50,817 nt of DNA, taken from Rhodospirillales bacterium (GTDB taxonomy: Bacteria > Pseudomonadota > Alphaproteobacteria > Rhodospirillales > Defluviicoccaceae). This document shows positions 9,306 to 34,578 of the stretch, in pieces (the first letter of the stretch is position 1; the number at the start of each line of letters is the position of its first letter). The stretch spans positions 1 through 50,817 of the forward strand of contig JALOTH010000009.1 in NCBI GenBank assembly GCA_025458035.1. The letters run 5' to 3'. The notes under the pieces are model-generated. The model searched no databases, was not told the origin of the DNA, and saw only the letters and a list, made by a program, of their open reading frames with translations. Position numbers and translations under genes: made by a program.

Positions 9306-10768
9306 GGCGAGGCGCTTTCGGCATGGCGACCGTCGATGAACCGTCGGCGGGCAGCGGCGGCGGCGGTGCGGACGTTGGCTGGCGCGGTGCCACCCTCGGA
9401 GGTGCGGCTGGCGACCGAGGATTCGATGCCCAGCACGCCGGCGATGGTGGCGTCGATCTCCGGGGCGATGGCCTGCATGGTGGCGAGGGGCAGCGCGTCC
9501 AGCCGGCAGCCGGCAGCCTCTGCCGCCTTCACCAGCGCGCCGGTGACGTGATGGGCGCGGCGGAAGGGCATGCCCTTGACGCGAACCAGCCAGTCGGCGA
9601 TGTCGGTGGCTGCGGCGAAGCCGAGATCGGCGGCCGCGCGCATCCGCCTTCGATCGAAGGTGGCCGTCGCCATCATGCCGGTCATCGCCGCGAGAGACAG
9701 CGCCAGCGTGTCGGTGGCCTCGAACACCGGCTCCTTGTCCTCCTGCATATCCTTGGCATAGGCGAGCGGCAGTCCCTTCATGACGATCAACAGGGCGTTG
9801 AGCGCGCCGATCAGCCGGCCCGCCTTGGCCCGCACCAGTTCGGCCGCGTCCGGATTGCGCTTTTGCGGCATGATGGAACTGCCGGTGGAAAACTCATCGG
9901 CCAGCCGCACGAAGGCGAACGGCTCGCAGCTCCAGATGACAATCTCTTCGCCGAGCCGCGACAGATGCACCGCGAGAATGGCGCCGGCGGCGAGGAATTC
10001 CAGCGCGAAGTCGCGGTCGGAGACGGCGTCAAGGGAGTTGGCGCAGGGCGCGCGGAAGCCGAGGGCGTCGGCGGTGGCGCGGCGGTCGATAGGAAACGAC
10101 GTGCCGGCAAGGGCAGCCGCACCAAGCGGACACTCGTTAACTCGAAATCGGGCGTCGGCGAGACGGCCGCGGTCGCGTCCCAGCATCTCCACATAGGCCA
10201 GCAAGTGATGTCCCAGTGTGACCGGCTGCGCCGTCTGCAGGTGGGTGAAGCCGGGCATGATGGCGTCGGCGTAGGCCTCGGCCTTGTCGATCAGCGCGGC
10301 CTGCAGCCCGCGGATGGCGTCATCGAGGCCGTCGATGGCGTCCCGTACCCACAGCCGGAAGTCGGTTGCCACCTGATCGTTGCGCGAGCGCGCGGTATGC
10401 AGGCGCCCCGCCGGTTCGCCGATCAGTTCCGCCAGTCTCGCCTCGACGTTCATATGAACGTCCTCGAGGTCGTGCCGATAGGCCAGCGATCCCGCCGCCG
10501 CCTCGGCGCGTATCTTGGCCAGGCCATCAAGGATGGCATCCCCATCGGCTTGCGATATGATGCCCTGACGAACCAGCATTTCACAGTGAGCGCGCGAAGC
10601 GGCGATATCCTGGGCGATCAGCCGGCGATCGAAATCAACGGAGACGTTGATCGCGGCCATGATGGCGCTGGGTCCGGCGGCGAACCGTCCACCCCAAATG
10701 GGGCTAGGCTCGGCATCGCCGCGGGCGGCCGCCTCGGCGGTCATACTGGGCTTCGCGGGTTCGCTCAT
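9302..10768 (-). CDS. argH: Argininosuccinate lyase
   Basis: A 488-residue cytosolic enzyme that cleaves argininosuccinate to arginine and fumarate, the last step of arginine synthesis. It carries the fumarase/aspartase superfamily signature [12 protein letters not shown], the [10 protein letters not shown] substrate loop and the HLQTAQP region. The N-terminal 25 residues ([20 protein letters not shown]) are an extension before the usual IWGGRF start and may indicate a later true start. It is divergently transcribed from the TlpA-like gene, an arrangement known from other alphaproteobacteria, and its stop overlaps the following membrane-protein gene. argG and argJ lie 4.4 and 9 kb away. Confidence 0.96.
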
Positions 10769-28303: not shown

Positions 28304-28453
28304 TCTCTCGTCGTGCACCAGCGGCAGAGCGATGGCTCAAATTGCAATATATCGATAATCATTTTGAATTGATGCCGACGCTAATATCTCCTCATGATTA
28401 CCAAATTCTGCTTGAAATCATCCAGTGACAAAATGATTGCGCCCCTGCCGGCG

Positions 28454-28470
28454 TTGTCACGAAATATTCA
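28454..28470 (+). promoter_or_regulatory. 17-bp motif, copy 1 (TTGTCACGAAATATTCA)
   Basis: Lies 98 bases before the DUF3141 start codon in an AT-rich intergenic stretch. It matches a second site at 30861-30877 in 16 of 17 positions. Its position upstream of two genes of one cluster suggests a shared regulator binding site. The regulator is unknown. Confidence 0.5.
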
Positions 28471-28478
28471 TTTCATTG

Positions 28479-28518
28479 ACCTGCCAAAGTACCGCTGCCA
28501 TGCCACCATATGGCAGGT
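28479..28518 (+). repeat. Overlapping inverted repeats in the DUF3141 leader
   Basis: ACCTGCCA (28479-28486) is the reverse complement of TGGCAGGT (28511-28518). A second CTGCCAT at 28495-28501 can also pair with ATGGCAG at 28510-28516. The right arm therefore has two competing partners, as in switching RNA leaders or double operators. It ends 50 bases before the start codon. Confidence 0.5.
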
Positions 28519-28568
28519 GAAGAGGTCTCGGCGCCGTACGCCGGAACCATGGATAGGGAACACGAGCC

Positions 28569-30803
28569 ATGGCACTGGACATTCCAGCAGATTCCCTGCC
28601 GGGTGTAACGGCAGGCACACCGGGCGCCGCCGCCGACGCCCTGACCGCGGCGATGGCCTTCCCGCCGGTGGTGCAGCACGCCAGCGAATACTGGATCGAC
28701 AGTGTGCAGCGGATGATCCTGTTCTGGGATACGATCCGCGAACGGGGGAACATCTTCAACGAGCACCGGGCCAAAGGCGCGCCGCCGGTGCTCGACTTCG
28801 CCTATGATGTCATCCTTGACGGCCGCAGCCTGCCACGTCCCTGCAACTACATGCTGTTGCAGATCCGGCCGAAGCCGGGGATGACGGTCGATGCGAAAAA
28901 GCGGCCGTTCGTCATCGTTGATCCCCGTGCCGGCCACGGCGCCGGCGTCGGCGGGATGAAGGAGGACAGCCAGGTCGGCGTCTCGCTGCGCGCCGGCCAT
29001 CCCACGTATTTTGTGGCCTTCACGCCAATGCCGGTGCCTGGCCAGACGCTGGCCGACATCGCCGCCGCCGAGGCGAAGTTCATTGAAACCGTTCGGCTGC
29101 GCCACCCCGAGGCCGACGGCAAGCCGGCGGTCATCGGCAACTGCCAGGCGGGTTGGGCGGTCATGTCGTTGTCGGCGGTCGAACCGGGCCTGATGGGGCC
29201 GGTGATCATCTGCGGCTCGCCCATGTCCTACTGGGCCGGCGCCGACGGCAAGAACCCCATGCGCTACATGGGCGGGCTGATCGGTGGCGCCTGGATCACT
29301 TCGCTGATGAGCGATCTGGGCGGGGGCATCTTCGACGGCGCCAACCTCGTCGCCAACTTCGAGCGACTGAACCCGGCGAACACGCTGTGGGCCAAAAACT
29401 ACAACCTCTACGCCAGTATCGACACGGAGGCCGAGCGCTTCCTGGAGTTCGAGCGCTGGTGGACCGGCTTTTTCCTCATGACGAAGCCGGAAATGACCCG
29501 GATCGTCAACGAGTTGTTCGTCGGCAACAAGCTGGCGGCCGGCCGCATCCGGACGGAGAGCGGCGCCTACATCGACCTTAAGGATATCGCCGCGCCGATC
29601 GTCGTCTTTGCATCGGGTGGGGATAACATCACGCCGCCGCAGCAGGCGCTGAATTGGATCGTTGACGTCTACGGTAGCGAGGAAGAGATCAAGATTCACG
29701 GCCAGACGATCGTTTATGTTCTGCACCGGGATATTGGTCACCTCGGCATCTTCGTGTCCGGCAAGGTCGCGAAAAAAGAACATTATGAAATCAACGAGGC
29801 CATAGACTTCATAGACGTGCTGCCGCCGGGCCTTTACGAAATGGTTGTCGAAAAGATGCCGGCGGACGCAGCGGATCGTCCCGAAGATCTCTATCTGACT
29901 CGTTTCGAGGCGCGCACAATTAACGACATTCGCCGCCTTGATGACCAACAGAAAGACGTCGAGTATTTCCCATCTTCGAAGCTGGTGTCCGAGATCAATG
30001 CCAAGTTCTACGATGTGTTTGTCGGACCGTGGGTGAAGATGATGGTGACCGAGCCAGTCGCCGACGTGCTGCGCGAGTTGCACCCGCTGCGCATTCAGCA
30101 CCGCATGCTCTCCGACAAGAACCCGTTCGTCATGCCGCTGAAAGGCCTTGCCGCCGCAGTGCGGGAAGCCAGGCAGCCGGCATCCCCGGACAACATGTTC
30201 GTCGCCTGCGAAAGACAGGTCTCGGAGGCCATCATTGGCATCCTTGATCACTATCGAGACGTGCGTGACCGGATGCAGGAGCAAACCTTCAAGGCGATCT
30301 ACGGTCCCAAAGCGCTCGGCGCGTTTTTCTACACGGAAGACGACGTGGAGGCCGCGAAGTTCGCGCCGATCGTCCGCACGAAGCGGGAGCAGGCGGAACT
30401 GGACGCCACCATCGAACGGCTGAAGTCGCGCATCGAACGGGGCGGCTTCGTGGAAGGCTGGGCGCGCATCGTCGCGGCCTTGATGCTGGGATCGGGCGGC
30501 ATCAACGAGAGGGAACTGGAGGCGGGCCGGCAGGTCCGCGAGCAGGATCCTCGCCTCAGCGGGCTGTCGGTGGCGGAACGCAAGCGGTTGCTCAAGGAGC
30601 AGGCGCACATGCTGCAGGTGGACGAGGATCGGGCACTGCGCGCGTTGCCGAAACTTCTCACATCATCGGAGGAGCGGCGTCAAGCGTGGACGATCGCCAA
30701 GCAGATCGCGCTCGGAGACGGCGTCGTCGACGACCGGCAGCGGGTGACGCTGGACCGTATCTCGAAAGCGTTGGCGCTCGACGCCGCTGCGGCAGCGGAG
30801 TAA
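28569..30803 (+). CDS. DUF3141 protein: PHA-synthase-like alpha/beta hydrolase with C-terminal TerB-like domain
   Basis: 744 residues, no signal peptide. The alpha/beta-hydrolase core has a cysteine nucleophile elbow GNCQAGW (Cys192), an acid in FASGGDNITPP (Asp352) and a histidine in HRDIGHLGIF (His391), the order and type of triad found in polyhydroxyalkanoate synthases. The last 120 or so residues (AALMLGSGGINERE to ALGDGVVDDRQRVTLDRIS) look like a TerB/DjlA-type helical domain. DUF3141 proteins are related to PHA synthase by sequence but their activity is not established. The gene leads a cluster with a MaoC-Pta fusion, acetate kinase and fabI, pointing to acyl-CoA chemistry. Confidence 0.82.
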   Translation: MALDIPADSLPGVTAGTPGAAADALTAAMAFPPVVQHASEYWIDSVQRMILFWDTIRERGNIFNEHRAKGAPPVLDFAYDVILDGRSLPRPCNYMLLQIRPKPGMTVDAKKRPFVIVDPRAGHGAGVGGMKEDSQVGVSLRAGHPTYFVAFTPMPVPGQTLADIAAAEAKFIETVRLRHPEADGKPAVIGNCQAGWAVMSLSAVEPGLMGPVIICGSPMSYWAGADGKNPMRYMGGLIGGAWITSLMSDLGGGIFDGANLVANFERLNPANTLWAKNYNLYASIDTEAERFLEFERWWTGFFLMTKPEMTRIVNELFVGNKLAAGRIRTESGAYIDLKDIAAPIVVFASGGDNITPPQQALNWIVDVYGSEEEIKIHGQTIVYVLHRDIGHLGIFVSGKVAKKEHYEINEAIDFIDVLPPGLYEMVVEKMPADAADRPEDLYLTRFEARTINDIRRLDDQQKDVEYFPSSKLVSEINAKFYDVFVGPWVKMMVTEPVADVLRELHPLRIQHRMLSDKNPFVMPLKGLAAAVREARQPASPDNMFVACERQVSEAIIGILDHYRDVRDRMQEQTFKAIYGPKALGAFFYTEDDVEAAKFAPIVRTKREQAELDATIERLKSRIERGGFVEGWARIVAALMLGSGGINERELEAGRQVREQDPRLSGLSVAERKRLLKEQAHMLQVDEDRALRALPKLLTSSEERRQAWTIAKQIALGDGVVDDRQRVTLDRISKALALDAAAAAE

Positions 30804-30860
30804 CAGGGGGGCGGTTTCTGAGGGTCGCCGCCGCCCCTCGGCGGCGGGACCAGTCGGCAA

Positions 30861-30877
30861 TTGTCACGAAATGTTCA
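30861..30877 (+). promoter_or_regulatory. 17-bp motif, copy 2 (TTGTCACGAAATGTTCA)
   Basis: Lies 58 bases after the DUF3141 stop and 191 bases before the MaoC-Pta start, in the 265-base gap between them. It differs from copy 1 at one base. The gap is otherwise without a gene and probably holds a second promoter in the cluster. Confidence 0.5.
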
Positions 30878-31068
30878 CGGCAGCGGCGCGGCGACTGTCG
30901 GCAAGCGACGCCACCATGATCGAACGCGGTCCGGTCGCAACGTGGCTCAAGGTCCGGCATCGGCACCACCGAGTTGGCGCCGCTTGGCAATGAGCGTTCA
31001 ACCAACCGTCGTGGACAGCGTGGTCACGGGCCACCTTCCCACCCATGCCCTAAGGAGGAGAGCTTTCC

Positions 31069-32484
31069 ATGTCGCCGGTCATCGAAAACAAGACTTTCGA
31101 CGAGATCGCCATCGGCGAGACGGTCAGCGTCACGCATGTGTTGTCGGCGGAGGATGTCGAGACGTGGGCGGCGGTCACGGGCAACCTGAATATCTTCGAT
31201 CTCGATCCGGGCCCCGCCGATACCTCGATGTTCGCCCAGGGCGGCGGTCAGACGATGTGGGGGGCGACGTTGTTCTCGACGATCGCCGGCACCAGCCTGC
31301 CGGGACTCGGTTCGATCACCCGCGCCGTCAGCCTCGACTTCCATCAGCCCGTGCAGATTGGCGTGCCGGTCACCGCGACGATGACCGTCGCCGACAAGCT
31401 CCCGGACAACCACGTCATCGTTTTTGCCTGCCGGCTCACCGGCGTTCTCGGCACCGTGCTGATGGATGGCACGCTGCACGTCTCCGCGCCCGCTACCAAG
31501 CGGCGCTATGAACAGAAAGATCTGCCGAAGGTGCAGTTGCGGCGCGAGGATCGCTACCGGGACTTAGTCCGCATGTGCGAGGACCTGCCCACGCTCAGTT
31601 GCGCCGTCGTCCATCCGTGCAGCGATGACGCGCTGAAGGGCGCGATCGAGGCCGCGGCACTCAAGCTGATCAGGCCGATCCTCGTCGGACCGGCGAAACG
31701 GATCGAGGAAGTGGCACATGCCACGGGTCTCGACATCAGCGGCTGCGAGGTCATCGATACCGAACATTCCCACCACTCTGCGGAGGTTGGGGTCGCACTC
31801 GTGCGCAGTGGCAAAGCGCAGACCCTGATGAAGGGCAGCCTGCATACCGACGAGCTCCTCGCCGAGGTCGTCCGCAAGGAGACGGGCCTGCGCACGGAGC
31901 GCCGCTTGAGTCACTGCTTCCTCATTGCCGTGCCCACCTACCCGCGACCGATCATCGTCTCCGACGCGGCGATCAACATCCTCCCCGATCTCGCGGCGAA
32001 AGCCGACATCGTTCAGAACGCCATCGAACTGGCCAAGGCGATCGGCATCGCAGTGCCGAAGGTGGCGATCCTGTCGGCGGTGGAAACGGTCACCCCAAAG
32101 ATCCCATCGACGCTGGAAGCCGCGGCGCTGTGCAAGATGGCCGACCGTGGCCAGATCAAGGGCGGTATCCTCGACGGCCCGCTCGCCTTCGACAACGCCA
32201 TCGACGAGGGCGCCGCGAAAACCAAGGGCATCGTCTCGCCGGTCGCTGGCAAGGCCGATATTCTCATCGTGCCCAGCCTCGAAGCCGGCAATATGGTGGC
32301 CAAGCAGTTGACGTTCATGGCCAACGCCGAAGCGGCCGGCCTCGTCATCGGCGCCCGCGCGCCGATCGTGTTGACCAGCCGTGCCGACAGCGACACCGCG
32401 CGCCTCGCCTCCTGCGCGCTCGCCGTGCTTTTCGCCCATGCGCAAAACCAGGGCGCGGCGCTGTTGAAAGCGGCGGCGGAGTAG
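31069..32484 (+). CDS. MaoC-like domain fused to phosphate acetyl/butyryltransferase
   Basis: 471 residues. Residues 1-150 are a MaoC-type hot-dog domain, the fold of R-specific enoyl-CoA hydratases; residues 150-471 are a phosphate acyltransferase (PTA/PTB) domain with LPTLSCAVVHPCSDDALKGA, TLMKGSLHTDELL and DGPLAFDNAIDEGAAKTKG. This fusion is known as bifunctional enoyl-CoA hydratase/phosphate acetyltransferase. The expected hydratase motif G-D-x-N-P-x-H reads GNLNIFD here, so the catalytic Asp and His are Asn39 and Asp44. The Pta half would interconvert acyl-CoA and acyl phosphate. AAGGAGGAG precedes the ATG and ackA follows 5 bases after the stop. Confidence 0.88.
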   Translation: MSPVIENKTFDEIAIGETVSVTHVLSAEDVETWAAVTGNLNIFDLDPGPADTSMFAQGGGQTMWGATLFSTIAGTSLPGLGSITRAVSLDFHQPVQIGVPVTATMTVADKLPDNHVIVFACRLTGVLGTVLMDGTLHVSAPATKRRYEQKDLPKVQLRREDRYRDLVRMCEDLPTLSCAVVHPCSDDALKGAIEAAALKLIRPILVGPAKRIEEVAHATGLDISGCEVIDTEHSHHSAEVGVALVRSGKAQTLMKGSLHTDELLAEVVRKETGLRTERRLSHCFLIAVPTYPRPIIVSDAAINILPDLAAKADIVQNAIELAKAIGIAVPKVAILSAVETVTPKIPSTLEAAALCKMADRGQIKGGILDGPLAFDNAIDEGAAKTKGIVSPVAGKADILIVPSLEAGNMVAKQLTFMANAEAAGLVIGARAPIVLTSRADSDTARLASCALAVLFAHAQNQGAALLKAAAE

Positions 32485-32489
32485 GGGCG

Positions 32490-33680
32490 ATGGCGAATGC
32501 GATCCTGGTCCTGAATGCCGGCTCGTCCAGCATCAAGTTCGGTGTATTTGCCACCGGCATCGGCACCGGGGGCGAGACAGACCTGGCCTTTCGCGGCCAG
32601 ATGGAAGGGATCGGCAGCGATCCGGCGTTCGCGGTGAAGGATGCTCAAGGCGCGACGATCTTCGAACATGACGAATGGCCGCGCGGCTCAACCCTCACGC
32701 ACCTCGGCGCCGTCCGTTTCATTCTCGAATACCTGAAGGACCGGTGCGCGGACATGCCCATCGTCGGCGCCGGCCATCGCGTCGTCCATGGCGGTCTCGC
32801 CTATGACCGGCCGGTGGTGGTCACCCCCGAGGTGATCGAGACGTTGACCTCGCTGGTGCCGCTGGCGCCGCTGCACCAGCCGCACAACCTCGCCGCCATT
32901 CGCGCCATCGCGGAATTGGACCCGAACCTCCCGCAGGTGGCGTGCTTTGACACGGCCTTTCACAGCACGCAGCCACGCGTCGCCCAGCTGTTCGCGTTGC
33001 CCTGGCAACTGACCGACACCGGCATTCGCCGCTATGGGTTCCATGGATTATCCTATGAATACATCGCCCAACGGCTTTCCGGGTTCGATCCCAACGCCAG
33101 ACGGGTGGTGGTTGCCCACCTCGGGTCCGGCGCCAGCATGTGTGCGATCCGCGATGGCAAGAGCATCGAGAGCAGCATGGGCTTCACCGCCGTCGATGGC
33201 CTGCCCATGGGCACCCGCACGGGGGCCCTCGATCCTGGCGTCCTGCTCTATCTGATGCGGGAGCGCCGCTACGACGCGGCGGCGATCGAGCGGCTTTTGT
33301 ACAAGGAATCGGGACTGCTCGGCGTGTCGGGGGTTTCCAACGACATGCGCCATCTTACCAGCAGTAGCGATCCCCGCGCCGCCGAAGCCGTCGAGCTGTT
33401 CATCTACCATGTCGGCAAGTTTCTCGGAGCGCTGACGGCGGCCCTTGGCGGCATCGACGCCTTCGTGTTCACGGCCGGCATCGGCGAGAACGACCGTCGA
33501 TTGCGCGCGCGGGTCTGTGAGCAGGCGGCTTGGCTGGGTATCGCCCTCGATCCGGAGGCCAATGAGTGCAACGGCCCGCGCATCTCAACGGCGGACAGCG
33601 CCGTCTCGGTATGGGTCATCCCGACCAATGAAGAGGGGATGATTGCCCAACATACCGCCAGCCTCGTGGGCTTGCCCTGA
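32490..33680 (+). CDS. ackA: Acetate/propionate kinase
   Basis: 396 residues. Makes ATP from acetyl (or propionyl) phosphate, or the reverse. ASKHA-fold signatures are present: NAGSSSIKFGVF at the N-terminus, GHRVVHGG, FDTAFH, YGFHGLSYEY, HLGSGASM and FTAGIGEN. The true start is the ATG 5 bases after the stop of the MaoC-Pta gene, preceded by GGGG; the frame is open further upstream but overlaps that gene. With the preceding phosphotransacylase it forms the Pta-AckA pathway in one operon. Substrate chain length cannot be told by eye. Confidence 0.94.
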   Translation: MANAILVLNAGSSSIKFGVFATGIGTGGETDLAFRGQMEGIGSDPAFAVKDAQGATIFEHDEWPRGSTLTHLGAVRFILEYLKDRCADMPIVGAGHRVVHGGLAYDRPVVVTPEVIETLTSLVPLAPLHQPHNLAAIRAIAELDPNLPQVACFDTAFHSTQPRVAQLFALPWQLTDTGIRRYGFHGLSYEYIAQRLSGFDPNARRVVVAHLGSGASMCAIRDGKSIESSMGFTAVDGLPMGTRTGALDPGVLLYLMRERRYDAAAIERLLYKESGLLGVSGVSNDMRHLTSSSDPRAAEAVELFIYHVGKFLGALTAALGGIDAFVFTAGIGENDRRLRARVCEQAAWLGIALDPEANECNGPRISTADSAVSVWVIPTNEEGMIAQHTASLVGLP

Positions 33681-33741
33681 GATTTGCGCAGTGACCAAGC
33701 TTGAGCTTTTGCCGATCACCTAGACAAACGGAGCGGGTATC

Positions 33742-34578
33742 GTGAACGACGCCGACCTCAACACGGAAGACTTCTTTGCCAAGGTTCGTGAGCGCATCTT
33801 GGGGCCGGACGGGCCGCTCGAAGGAAAAAAAGCGTTCATTCTTGGCATCGCCAACGATCAATCCATTGCCTACGGTTGCGCGATGGCGATGAAGGCCTTC
33901 GGCGCTGAAATTGCCATGACCTATCTCAATGAAAAGACAAAAAAGTTCACGCAGGGCATCGCCGAGAAGTTAGGCGTTGCGCCGGAATTGTATCTGCCGT
34001 GCGACGTCACCCAGGAAGGCCAACTTGAGGCCGCGTTCGCCGCCATTGAAAAGCACTGGGGCAAGCTTGACATCGCCCTGCATTCCATCGCGTTTGCGCC
34101 GCGTGAGGACCTGCACGGACGCGTCATCGATTGCTCGCTCGAAGGATTTACGGTGGCGATGCAGGTCAGCTGTTATTCGTTCATCCACATGGCGCGACTG
34201 GCCGAACCGCTGATGACGGACGGCGGCGCCCTCGTCACCATGACCTACCACGGCGCCGATCGGGTCATCGATCACTATAACGTCATGGGTCCGGTGAAGG
34301 CGGCGCTGCAGTCGGCGGCACTCTACCTCGCCGCGGAACTCGGGCCTAAGGGCATCCGCGTTCACCCGATTTCCCCCGGCCCGTTGAAGACGCGCGCGGC
34401 CTCGGGCATCAGTCATTTCGACGAACTCATGGAAATGGCAGCGTCAAAGGCGCCGGCGCGGGCACTGTCGACGATCGAAGACATCGGCATGGCGACCGCC
34501 TTCCTGTGCACCGACTACGCCAGGATGATCACCGGTGATATCATGTACATCGACGGCGGCTTTCACATCGTCGGCTGA
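33742..34578 (+). CDS. fabI: Enoyl-[acyl-carrier-protein] reductase (NADH), FabI
   Basis: 278 residues. Reduces the trans-2-enoyl bond in fatty acid elongation. The NAD-binding segment is GIANDQSIAYG (35-45) and the FabI catalytic set is Tyr169, Tyr179 and Lys186 with the family spacing (TYHGADRVIDHY-NVMGPVK). SPGPLKTRAASGI and GDIMYIDGGFHI complete the match. The N-terminus is some 20 residues longer than E. coli FabI. The start is a GTG. It lies 61 bases after ackA on the same strand; whether it is the housekeeping reductase or a cluster-specific paralogue cannot be decided from this window. Confidence 0.93.
   Translation: MNDADLNTEDFFAKVRERILGPDGPLEGKKAFILGIANDQSIAYGCAMAMKAFGAEIAMTYLNEKTKKFTQGIAEKLGVAPELYLPCDVTQEGQLEAAFAAIEKHWGKLDIALHSIAFAPREDLHGRVIDCSLEGFTVAMQVSCYSFIHMARLAEPLMTDGGALVTMTYHGADRVIDHYNVMGPVKAALQSAALYLAAELGPKGIRVHPISPGPLKTRAASGISHFDELMEMAASKAPARALSTIEDIGMATAFLCTDYARMITGDIMYIDGGFHIVG

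Follow-up and report, generated by a model that had tools for sequence, protein, structure and literature searches.

What does a DUF3141 protein do beside enzymes that can turn acyl-coenzyme A (acyl-CoA) into acyl phosphate and ATP? The question is raised by a 50,817-base stretch of a Rhodospirillales bacterium genome (contig C218 of a 3.1 Mb assembly in 239 contigs, 96% complete), the whole of which we call the window. Here, a DUF3141 gene stands ahead of genes for a fusion of a MaoC domain to a phosphotransacylase (MaoC-Pta), an acetate/propionate family kinase (AckA) and an enoyl-acyl carrier protein (ACP) reductase (FabI). A module of this kind is already known from Sinorhizobium meliloti and Bradyrhizobium. 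What we add is the fold and catalytic triad that DUF3141 shares with the polyhydroxyalkanoate (PHA) synthase PhaC, its replacement by PhaC in other operons, the enrichment of FNR/FixK boxes in relatives, and the loss of the MaoC dyad. Our best explanation, which we consider evenly poised, is a conserved proteobacterial module through which short-chain acyl groups, most likely released from or bound to PHA, are coupled under stress to the formation of acyl phosphate and ATP.

Results

The Pta-AckA-FabI set accompanies either PhaC or DUF3141, and this is our main reason for ascribing PhaC-type chemistry to DUF3141, although it is no proof. Our class survey covered 289 alphaproteobacterial genomes, the source genome included, and gave 24 long MaoC-Pta matches: two in the source genome, two in genome G053, and the 20 from which new neighbourhoods were taken. 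AckA adjoins MaoC-Pta at 19 of these 20 loci and FabI lies nearby at 7, while at three (L178, L181 and L183) a true PhaC stands in the same run as MaoC-Pta and AckA. All three PhaC proteins match the PhaC_N and PHBC_N models, that of L183 without a cross-match to DUF3141. Similar clusters have been described, with phaC, a phaJ-pta fusion, ackA and fabI in Burkholderia group D1/D2 (PMC8231600) and with phaC1, fabI, bi-pta and ackA in Cobetia marina and Halomonas (PMC8686332). In the Burkholderia clusters, as in the window, a MaoC(PhaJ)-Pta fusion, AckA and FabI accompany a protein of PHA-synthase type; this is a true phaC there, whereas the window has DUF3141 instead and has lost the MaoC dyad. 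The Cobetia/Halomonas cluster shares the same set with a bifunctional MaoC-Pta, but contains a true phaC1, belongs to gammaproteobacteria and has another gene order.

The DUF3141 protein consists of a PhaC-like alpha/beta-hydrolase core (approximately residues 57-417) followed by a helical C-terminal tail. Cys192, Asp352 and His391 are invariant in 81/81 sequences and a G-x-C-x-G box is present; the equivalence of the Asp to that of PhaC was read from an alignment, those of the Cys and His from the motifs. With an AlphaFold2 model built on 56 aligned sequences (predicted local distance difference test, pLDDT, 89; predicted template modelling score, pTM, 0.89), ranks 1-11 in Foldseek are all PHA synthase chains. 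In VIA-align, PhaC entries take ranks 1-7 (Z 25.2-23.3), followed by gastric lipase (Z 21.6); the seven best structures (PDB 9knl, 9knk, 9knj, 5xav, 6k3c, 5hz2 and 5t6o) are 14-17% identical to the model. A published hydrolase classification likewise files DUF3141 under the PHA synthase triad, C-D-H. A first-pass annotation of this DNA had proposed a PHA-synthase-like core and a TerB-like tail. The core is borne out by the fold comparison and the invariant triad; the tail matches TerB (PF05099) at a sub-threshold 18.4 bits (E 0.0027, cut-off 24.4) and, folded alone, reached a pLDDT of 51.5, too poor for a structure search. Compared with class I PhaC, DUF3141 has the fold, the G-x-C-x-G box, the Asp and the His in common, and differs in its long helical C-terminal extension and in matching neither PhaC_N nor PHBC_N. 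Assignment of the protein to the PhaC family itself was considered and rejected, as it has no PhaC_N match and falls below the PhaC model cut-off.

The source genome carries a second DUF3141 gene on the 3,522-base contig C225, preceded by a FabI gene that is cut by the contig end; it probably holds a second module or half-module there.

How general is the association of DUF3141 with these partners? We examined 80 named loci, the best 80 of at least 588 confirmed stretches, 13 of them from Bradyrhizobium. They were assigned 50 lineage labels by hand from record titles and span Alpha-, Beta-, Gamma- and Deltaproteobacteria, plus single metagenome-assembled genomes (MAGs) labelled Chloroflexales and Planctomycetaceae. 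Partner genes were defined by similarity to the window's own proteins, with score limits applied, a definition that misses diverged partners. This neighbourhood survey, which the first-pass annotation had suggested, found the co-occurrence conserved: at least one of Pta, AckA and FabI lies within 5 kb of DUF3141 at 51/80 loci and all three at 34/80, the full set occurring in 15/50 lineages. The other loci have FabI only (9), FabI and Pta (3), AckA and Pta (2), AckA and FabI (2), Pta only (1) or none (29). The class survey, in which full-length DUF3141 meant a match above 600 bits, yielded 13 such loci in 11 genomes. At the 11 loci outside the source genome, Pta and AckA adjoin in 8, with FabI in addition in 7; at the eighth, FabI lies approximately 6 kb further on. 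The order of DUF3141 (D), Pta (P), AckA (A) and FabI (F) is shuffled among relatives (D-P-A-F, F-D-P-A, D-P-F-A, D-A-P), which argues for a functional linkage. None of 41 Pta open reading frames (ORFs) of the named loci matched MaoC (one MaoC query, E 1e-4, which a diverged MaoC could escape), and on these sequences a Pta fused to MaoC is the less common arrangement next to DUF3141.

The window copy has the following layout, all features lying on the + strand.

28454..28471, +: PHO-box-like site 1, TTGTCACGAAATATTCAT, upstream of DUF3141
28569..30803, +: DUF3141 protein, 744 aa; PF11339, 840.6 bits (cut-off 29.7), profile positions 1-576 of 582
30861..30878, +: PHO-box-like site 2, TTGTCACGAAATGTTCAC, between DUF3141 and MaoC-Pta
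31069..32484, +: MaoC-Pta fusion, 471 aa; NF006045, 654.3 bits (cut-off 282)
32490..33680, +: AckA, acetate/propionate family kinase, 396 aa; TIGR00016, 363.6 bits (cut-off 293.4), and PF00871, 365.8 bits
33742..34578, +: FabI, enoyl-ACP reductase, 278 aa; NF005717, 412.4 bits (cut-off 337)

The four genes had been annotated in this order on one strand, and family models confirm each of them above its cut-off. Intergenic gaps measure 265 bases (DUF3141/MaoC-Pta), 5 bases (MaoC-Pta/AckA) and 61 bases (AckA/FabI). The coordinates agree with the earlier placement of AckA, which starts at ATG 32490, 5 bases past the MaoC-Pta stop. The locus had also been given a start at 28454; this lies 115 bases ahead of the DUF3141 ORF start and is actually the first base of PHO-box-like site 1. 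As the 265-base gap carries a second copy of that site, DUF3141 and MaoC-Pta may form two separate transcription units; a simple scan of the gap found no terminator-like site. A divergent gene for a TAXI-type TRAP binding protein flanks the four-gene set upstream and a CorA/ZntB-type gene downstream.

MaoC-Pta combines an N-terminal PhaJ-like hot-dog domain with a C-terminal Ptb/Pta-type phosphotransacylase. Its best solved structure match is the phosphate butyryltransferase 7vg9 (2.3e-65), and the hydratase 5cpg also matches (2.8e-16). The phosphotransacylase half gives 310.1 bits with TIGR02706 (phosphate butyryltransferase), below the cut-off of 410.5, and 67.7 bits with TIGR00651 (pta); by these model scores it is nearer to phosphate butyryltransferase than to an acetyl-type Pta. 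The fusion had been recognized correctly at first pass, but its MaoC part should not be relied on as a hydratase: Asn39 and Asp44 stand where PhaJ has its catalytic Asp/His dyad, five residues apart. We rejected a working hydratase for the window copy on account of this loss; the domain is probably not catalytic and more likely serves a structural or binding role. Among 24 fused MaoC-Pta proteins, the dyad is kept in 13, lost in 10 and falls in a gap in 1.

A MaoC-Pta paralogue on contig C67 of the source genome (L076: 6230-7645, - strand), 64% identical to the window copy, has also lost the dyad; it adjoins Mla-type transporter genes (MlaE, ABC, MlaD), and no AckA was found nearby. At L188 (genome G128), which among the 20 fetched loci has the MaoC-Pta (591 bits), AckA and FabI closest to those of the window, the dyad Asp is lost and FabI is 75% identical; no DUF3141 match occurs in the 16 kb fetched. 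The window's FabI contains YNVMGPVK in its translation, which fits the Tyr-x6-Lys motif of this enzyme. It is an extra copy, another FabI of the source genome lying on contig C153 with 46% identity.

What switches the module on? The first-pass annotation had suggested a role at low oxygen. Its support comes from relatives, by FNR/FixK enrichment and a microaerobic Bradyrhizobium operon, whereas the window has PHO-box-like sites and no FNR/FixK box. The sequence TTGA-N6-TCAA, the FNR/FixK signature, occurs 80 times in 1,296,665 bases, and 24 of these matches lie within 300 bases upstream of DUF3141 (24,000 bases), where 1.48 are expected. The box is present at 21/80 named loci and in 8/50 lineages; 12 of the 21 loci are from Bradyrhizobium, and outside this genus it is found at 9/67 loci (11 matches). 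It accompanies 16/34 full modules versus 1/29 solitary DUF3141 loci. A de novo dyad search upstream of DUF3141 ranked the same motif first (20/80 regions, 0.87 expected). RpoN, EcfG and RpoH sites showed no enrichment. The signature therefore points to oxygen control in these relatives, and the trigger in Bradyrhizobium and others would be low oxygen, acting through FixK/FNR.

In Bradyrhizobium diazoefficiens, pta (blr3457) and ackA (blr3458) are reported as strongly induced in a phaR mutant under microoxia, and putative PhaR sites are listed for the operon blr3456-blr3459, with two values of 7.2 for blr3456 (PMC10888616). By the account given there, the operon belongs to the PhaR-controlled microaerobic response and is repressed by PhaR. 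It shares with the window a four-gene layout including pta and ackA, in which blr3456 would be the DUF3141 gene; other Bradyrhizobium loci show DUF3141, Pta, AckA and FabI. It differs in its repression by PhaR in microoxia, and Bradyrhizobium relatives carry FixK boxes that the window does not have.

The window instead has PHO-box-like sites 1 and 2, which stand one before each possible transcription unit and are alike in 16/18 bases (0/60 shuffles as good). Scores of at least 11.7 in both gaps were reached in 0/1000 shuffles. The 18-base pattern fits only three places in the source genome: besides sites 1 and 2, there is a match ahead of a pstS homologue. Since the pattern was written from those three sites after seeing them, there is some circularity in calling it rare. 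Neither window site was found by a strict PHO consensus, even with three mismatches allowed. We regard sites 1 and 2 as PHO boxes with moderate confidence, and the window copy would probably be switched on by a shortage of phosphate, through PhoB. That PHO control applies to the module in general was rejected, PHO matrix matches being unenriched upstream of relatives.

In S. meliloti CP050559, DUF3141, Pta, AckA and FabI lie in one run. Summers et al. reportedly placed an orf-pta-ackA-fabI operon of S. meliloti under PhoB in 1999, and the CP050559 run is very probably that operon; from the gene order, orfA would be the DUF3141 gene. Later papers that cite this work describe ORF-pta-ack-fabI as co-transcribed and upregulated in phosphate starvation through phoB (PMC8231600), and pta and ackA as likewise linked to phosphate starvation and phoB (PMC7793946, PMC5789663); one of them reports that exudates from Mimosa roots induce the four genes approximately twofold in one Burkholderia and one Rhizobium (PMC5789663). 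The operon comprises the same four families in the same order as the window, with a DUF3141 50% and a FabI 59% identical; it has a standalone Pta in place of the window's MaoC-Pta, and the second PHO-like site in a gap of 265 bases is a feature of the window. The first-pass statement that no function is established for the combination overlooks the S. meliloti operon and the Bradyrhizobium data; it holds for DUF3141 itself.

In CP050559 (L083), a FixK-like box with one position broken, TTGACGCAGATCAC, lies at 9841-9854, 88 bases before DUF3141, near the PHO-like site TTGTCAAACCGCCGTAAC. Oxygen- and phosphate-type signals may both act on this copy. A phosphoketolase gene lies approximately 4.5 kb downstream of FabI at this locus.

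Discussion

Pta converts acyl-CoA and phosphate to acyl phosphate and CoA, and AckA then yields acid and ATP. In the module that we propose, DUF3141, with its PhaC fold and Cys nucleophile, would move (hydroxy)acyl groups between CoA and a second acceptor, be it a PHA chain, ACP or water. In MaoC-Pta, the phosphotransacylase half would turn acyl-CoA into acyl phosphate and free CoA, AckA would use acyl phosphate and ADP to form acid and ATP, and FabI would reduce enoyl intermediates with NAD(P)H, discharging reductant. For the window copy, we infer every reaction, the flux direction and the inducing stress. A stress module drawing on PHA-linked or surplus acyl-CoA is suggested by the presence of a PhaC-type acyltransferase and an enoyl reductase, by PhaR control in one relative and by FixK-type sites in many. 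Judged by its sequence, the window would be a variant of this theme: its MaoC is fused and lacks the dyad, its promoters would be split, and its sites resemble PHO boxes and not FixK boxes.

A number of results weigh against this explanation. DUF3141 matched only PF11339, with no match to the PhaC_N and PHBC_N models, and scored 23.5 bits with the class III PhaC model TIGR01836, whose cut-off is 365.3. A PhaC-like fold and a Cys triad do not prove PHA chemistry, and the source genome encodes a separate PhaC-type protein on contig C190, away from the module. DUF3141 is without a partner within 5 kb at 29/80 named loci, including Deltaproteobacteria MAGs and Duganella (at least L098, L126 and L163 among them end at a contig edge within 1 kb downstream), and would therefore work without the module in many lineages. 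As to control, the FNR/FixK box has 0 matches in the 50,817-base window. Little weight attaches to this, as TTG[AC]N6[TG]CAA is also missing around the ccoN of the source genome (L204), despite six CRP/FNR-type helix-turn-helix matches over the cut-off in this genome. Upstream of DUF3141, PhaR-type TGCN3GCA sites show no enrichment (17 against 13.1 expected), and the only PhaR candidate in the source genome is a weak partial match (46.7 bits, cut-off 109.45). The best window match of a PHO matrix built on Escherichia coli sites is an AT-rich 18-mer at 28342 and not the repeated site, and matches to the matrix are not enriched in relatives (7/87 upstream regions with p <=0.05, mean p 0.47); the matrix is a poor one, having failed on the S. 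meliloti copy as well (p 0.3). We know of no enzyme activity of DUF3141, and for this reason our confidence in the module as a link from acyl groups to ATP goes no higher.

The Pta and AckA reactions are reversible, which counts in favour of a flux in the other direction: AckA and Pta would activate acetate or propionate to acyl-CoA to be stored as PHA, with DUF3141 acting as PHA synthase or helper and FabI in lipid supply. Storage of excess acetate has been proposed for the Burkholderia phaC, phaJ-pta, ackA cluster (PMC8231600), and ackA and pta have been tied to propionyl-CoA supply in Cobetia (PMC8686332). We nevertheless think storage unlikely, since the FNR/FixK boxes of relatives and the reported induction in a phaR mutant with less polyhydroxybutyrate (PHB) (PMC10888616) fit breakdown or overflow better, and FabI has no clear place in it. 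There is a comparably small chance that the system responds to phosphate stress without any part of PHA, with a PhoB-induced Pta-AckA pair balancing CoA, acetyl phosphate and phosphate while DUF3141 and FabI adjust fatty acids in lipid remodelling. The S. meliloti operon, phosphate-starvation-induced through PhoB according to citing papers, is consistent with this, as are the two PHO-like window sites with a further one upstream of the pstS homologue, a Rhodobacter CZR27 copy near ugpBAEC, and PPK2 family genes near 9/80 named loci. In relatives, however, FNR/FixK boxes are enriched and PHO-like sites are not (the PHO matrix being a weak test both ways), and in other operons a true PhaC stands in the same run.

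Could DUF3141 simply be an unrelated esterase or thioesterase that acts on membrane lipids or toxic acyl-CoA and merely shares a promoter with Pta, AckA and FabI? The 29/80 partnerless loci would suit such an enzyme, and generic lipases come close behind PhaC in fold score (21.6 versus 23.3). A co-occurrence that survives shuffled gene orders and a nucleophile that is Cys in 81/81 sequences make it very unlikely. We also considered a fermentation route leading from PHB to a short acid, butyrate or another, which we judge improbable. DUF3141 or PhaC would thiolyse the polymer to 3-hydroxybutyryl-CoA, a MaoC/PhaJ activity would dehydrate it, FabI would reduce the enoyl group and discharge NADH, the Ptb-like phosphotransacylase would form butyryl phosphate and the kinase ATP. 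Because the MaoC of the window has lost its dyad, a different protein would have to supply the hydration step there. If true, stored plastic would be an electron sink and an ATP source without oxygen.

Fold, Cys triad, recurrent partners and PhaC replacement narrow the question of what DUF3141 does, so that a small number of assays in tractable rhizobia could address it. If the low-oxygen reading of the proposed stress module is true, acyl groups that are stored or in surplus supply nitrogen-fixing and soil bacteria with ATP and redox balance at times of scarce respiration or phosphate. Control would clearly have been rewired if a single module stands under FixK-type sites in some lineages but under PHO-like sites elsewhere.

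Other genomic contexts

At L115, L145 and other Bradyrhizobium loci, the surroundings of the module repeatedly include genes for CoA-transferase subunits (13 loci) and a MaoC gene of its own (7 loci), mostly on the opposite strand. In the MAGs labelled Chloroflexales and Planctomycetaceae (L097, L118), DUF3141 is followed by FabI, which may reflect transfer or mis-binning. DUF3141 also occurs in 137 plasmid records, several with a shorter form covering approximately 73% of the query. Plasmid contexts (L088, L089, L091) include Sulfitobacter DUF3141 with FabI and a Legionella fallonii copy beside an extra ATP synthase set, and on an Acidiphilium plasmid DUF3141 lies beside a proton-efflux P-type ATPase.

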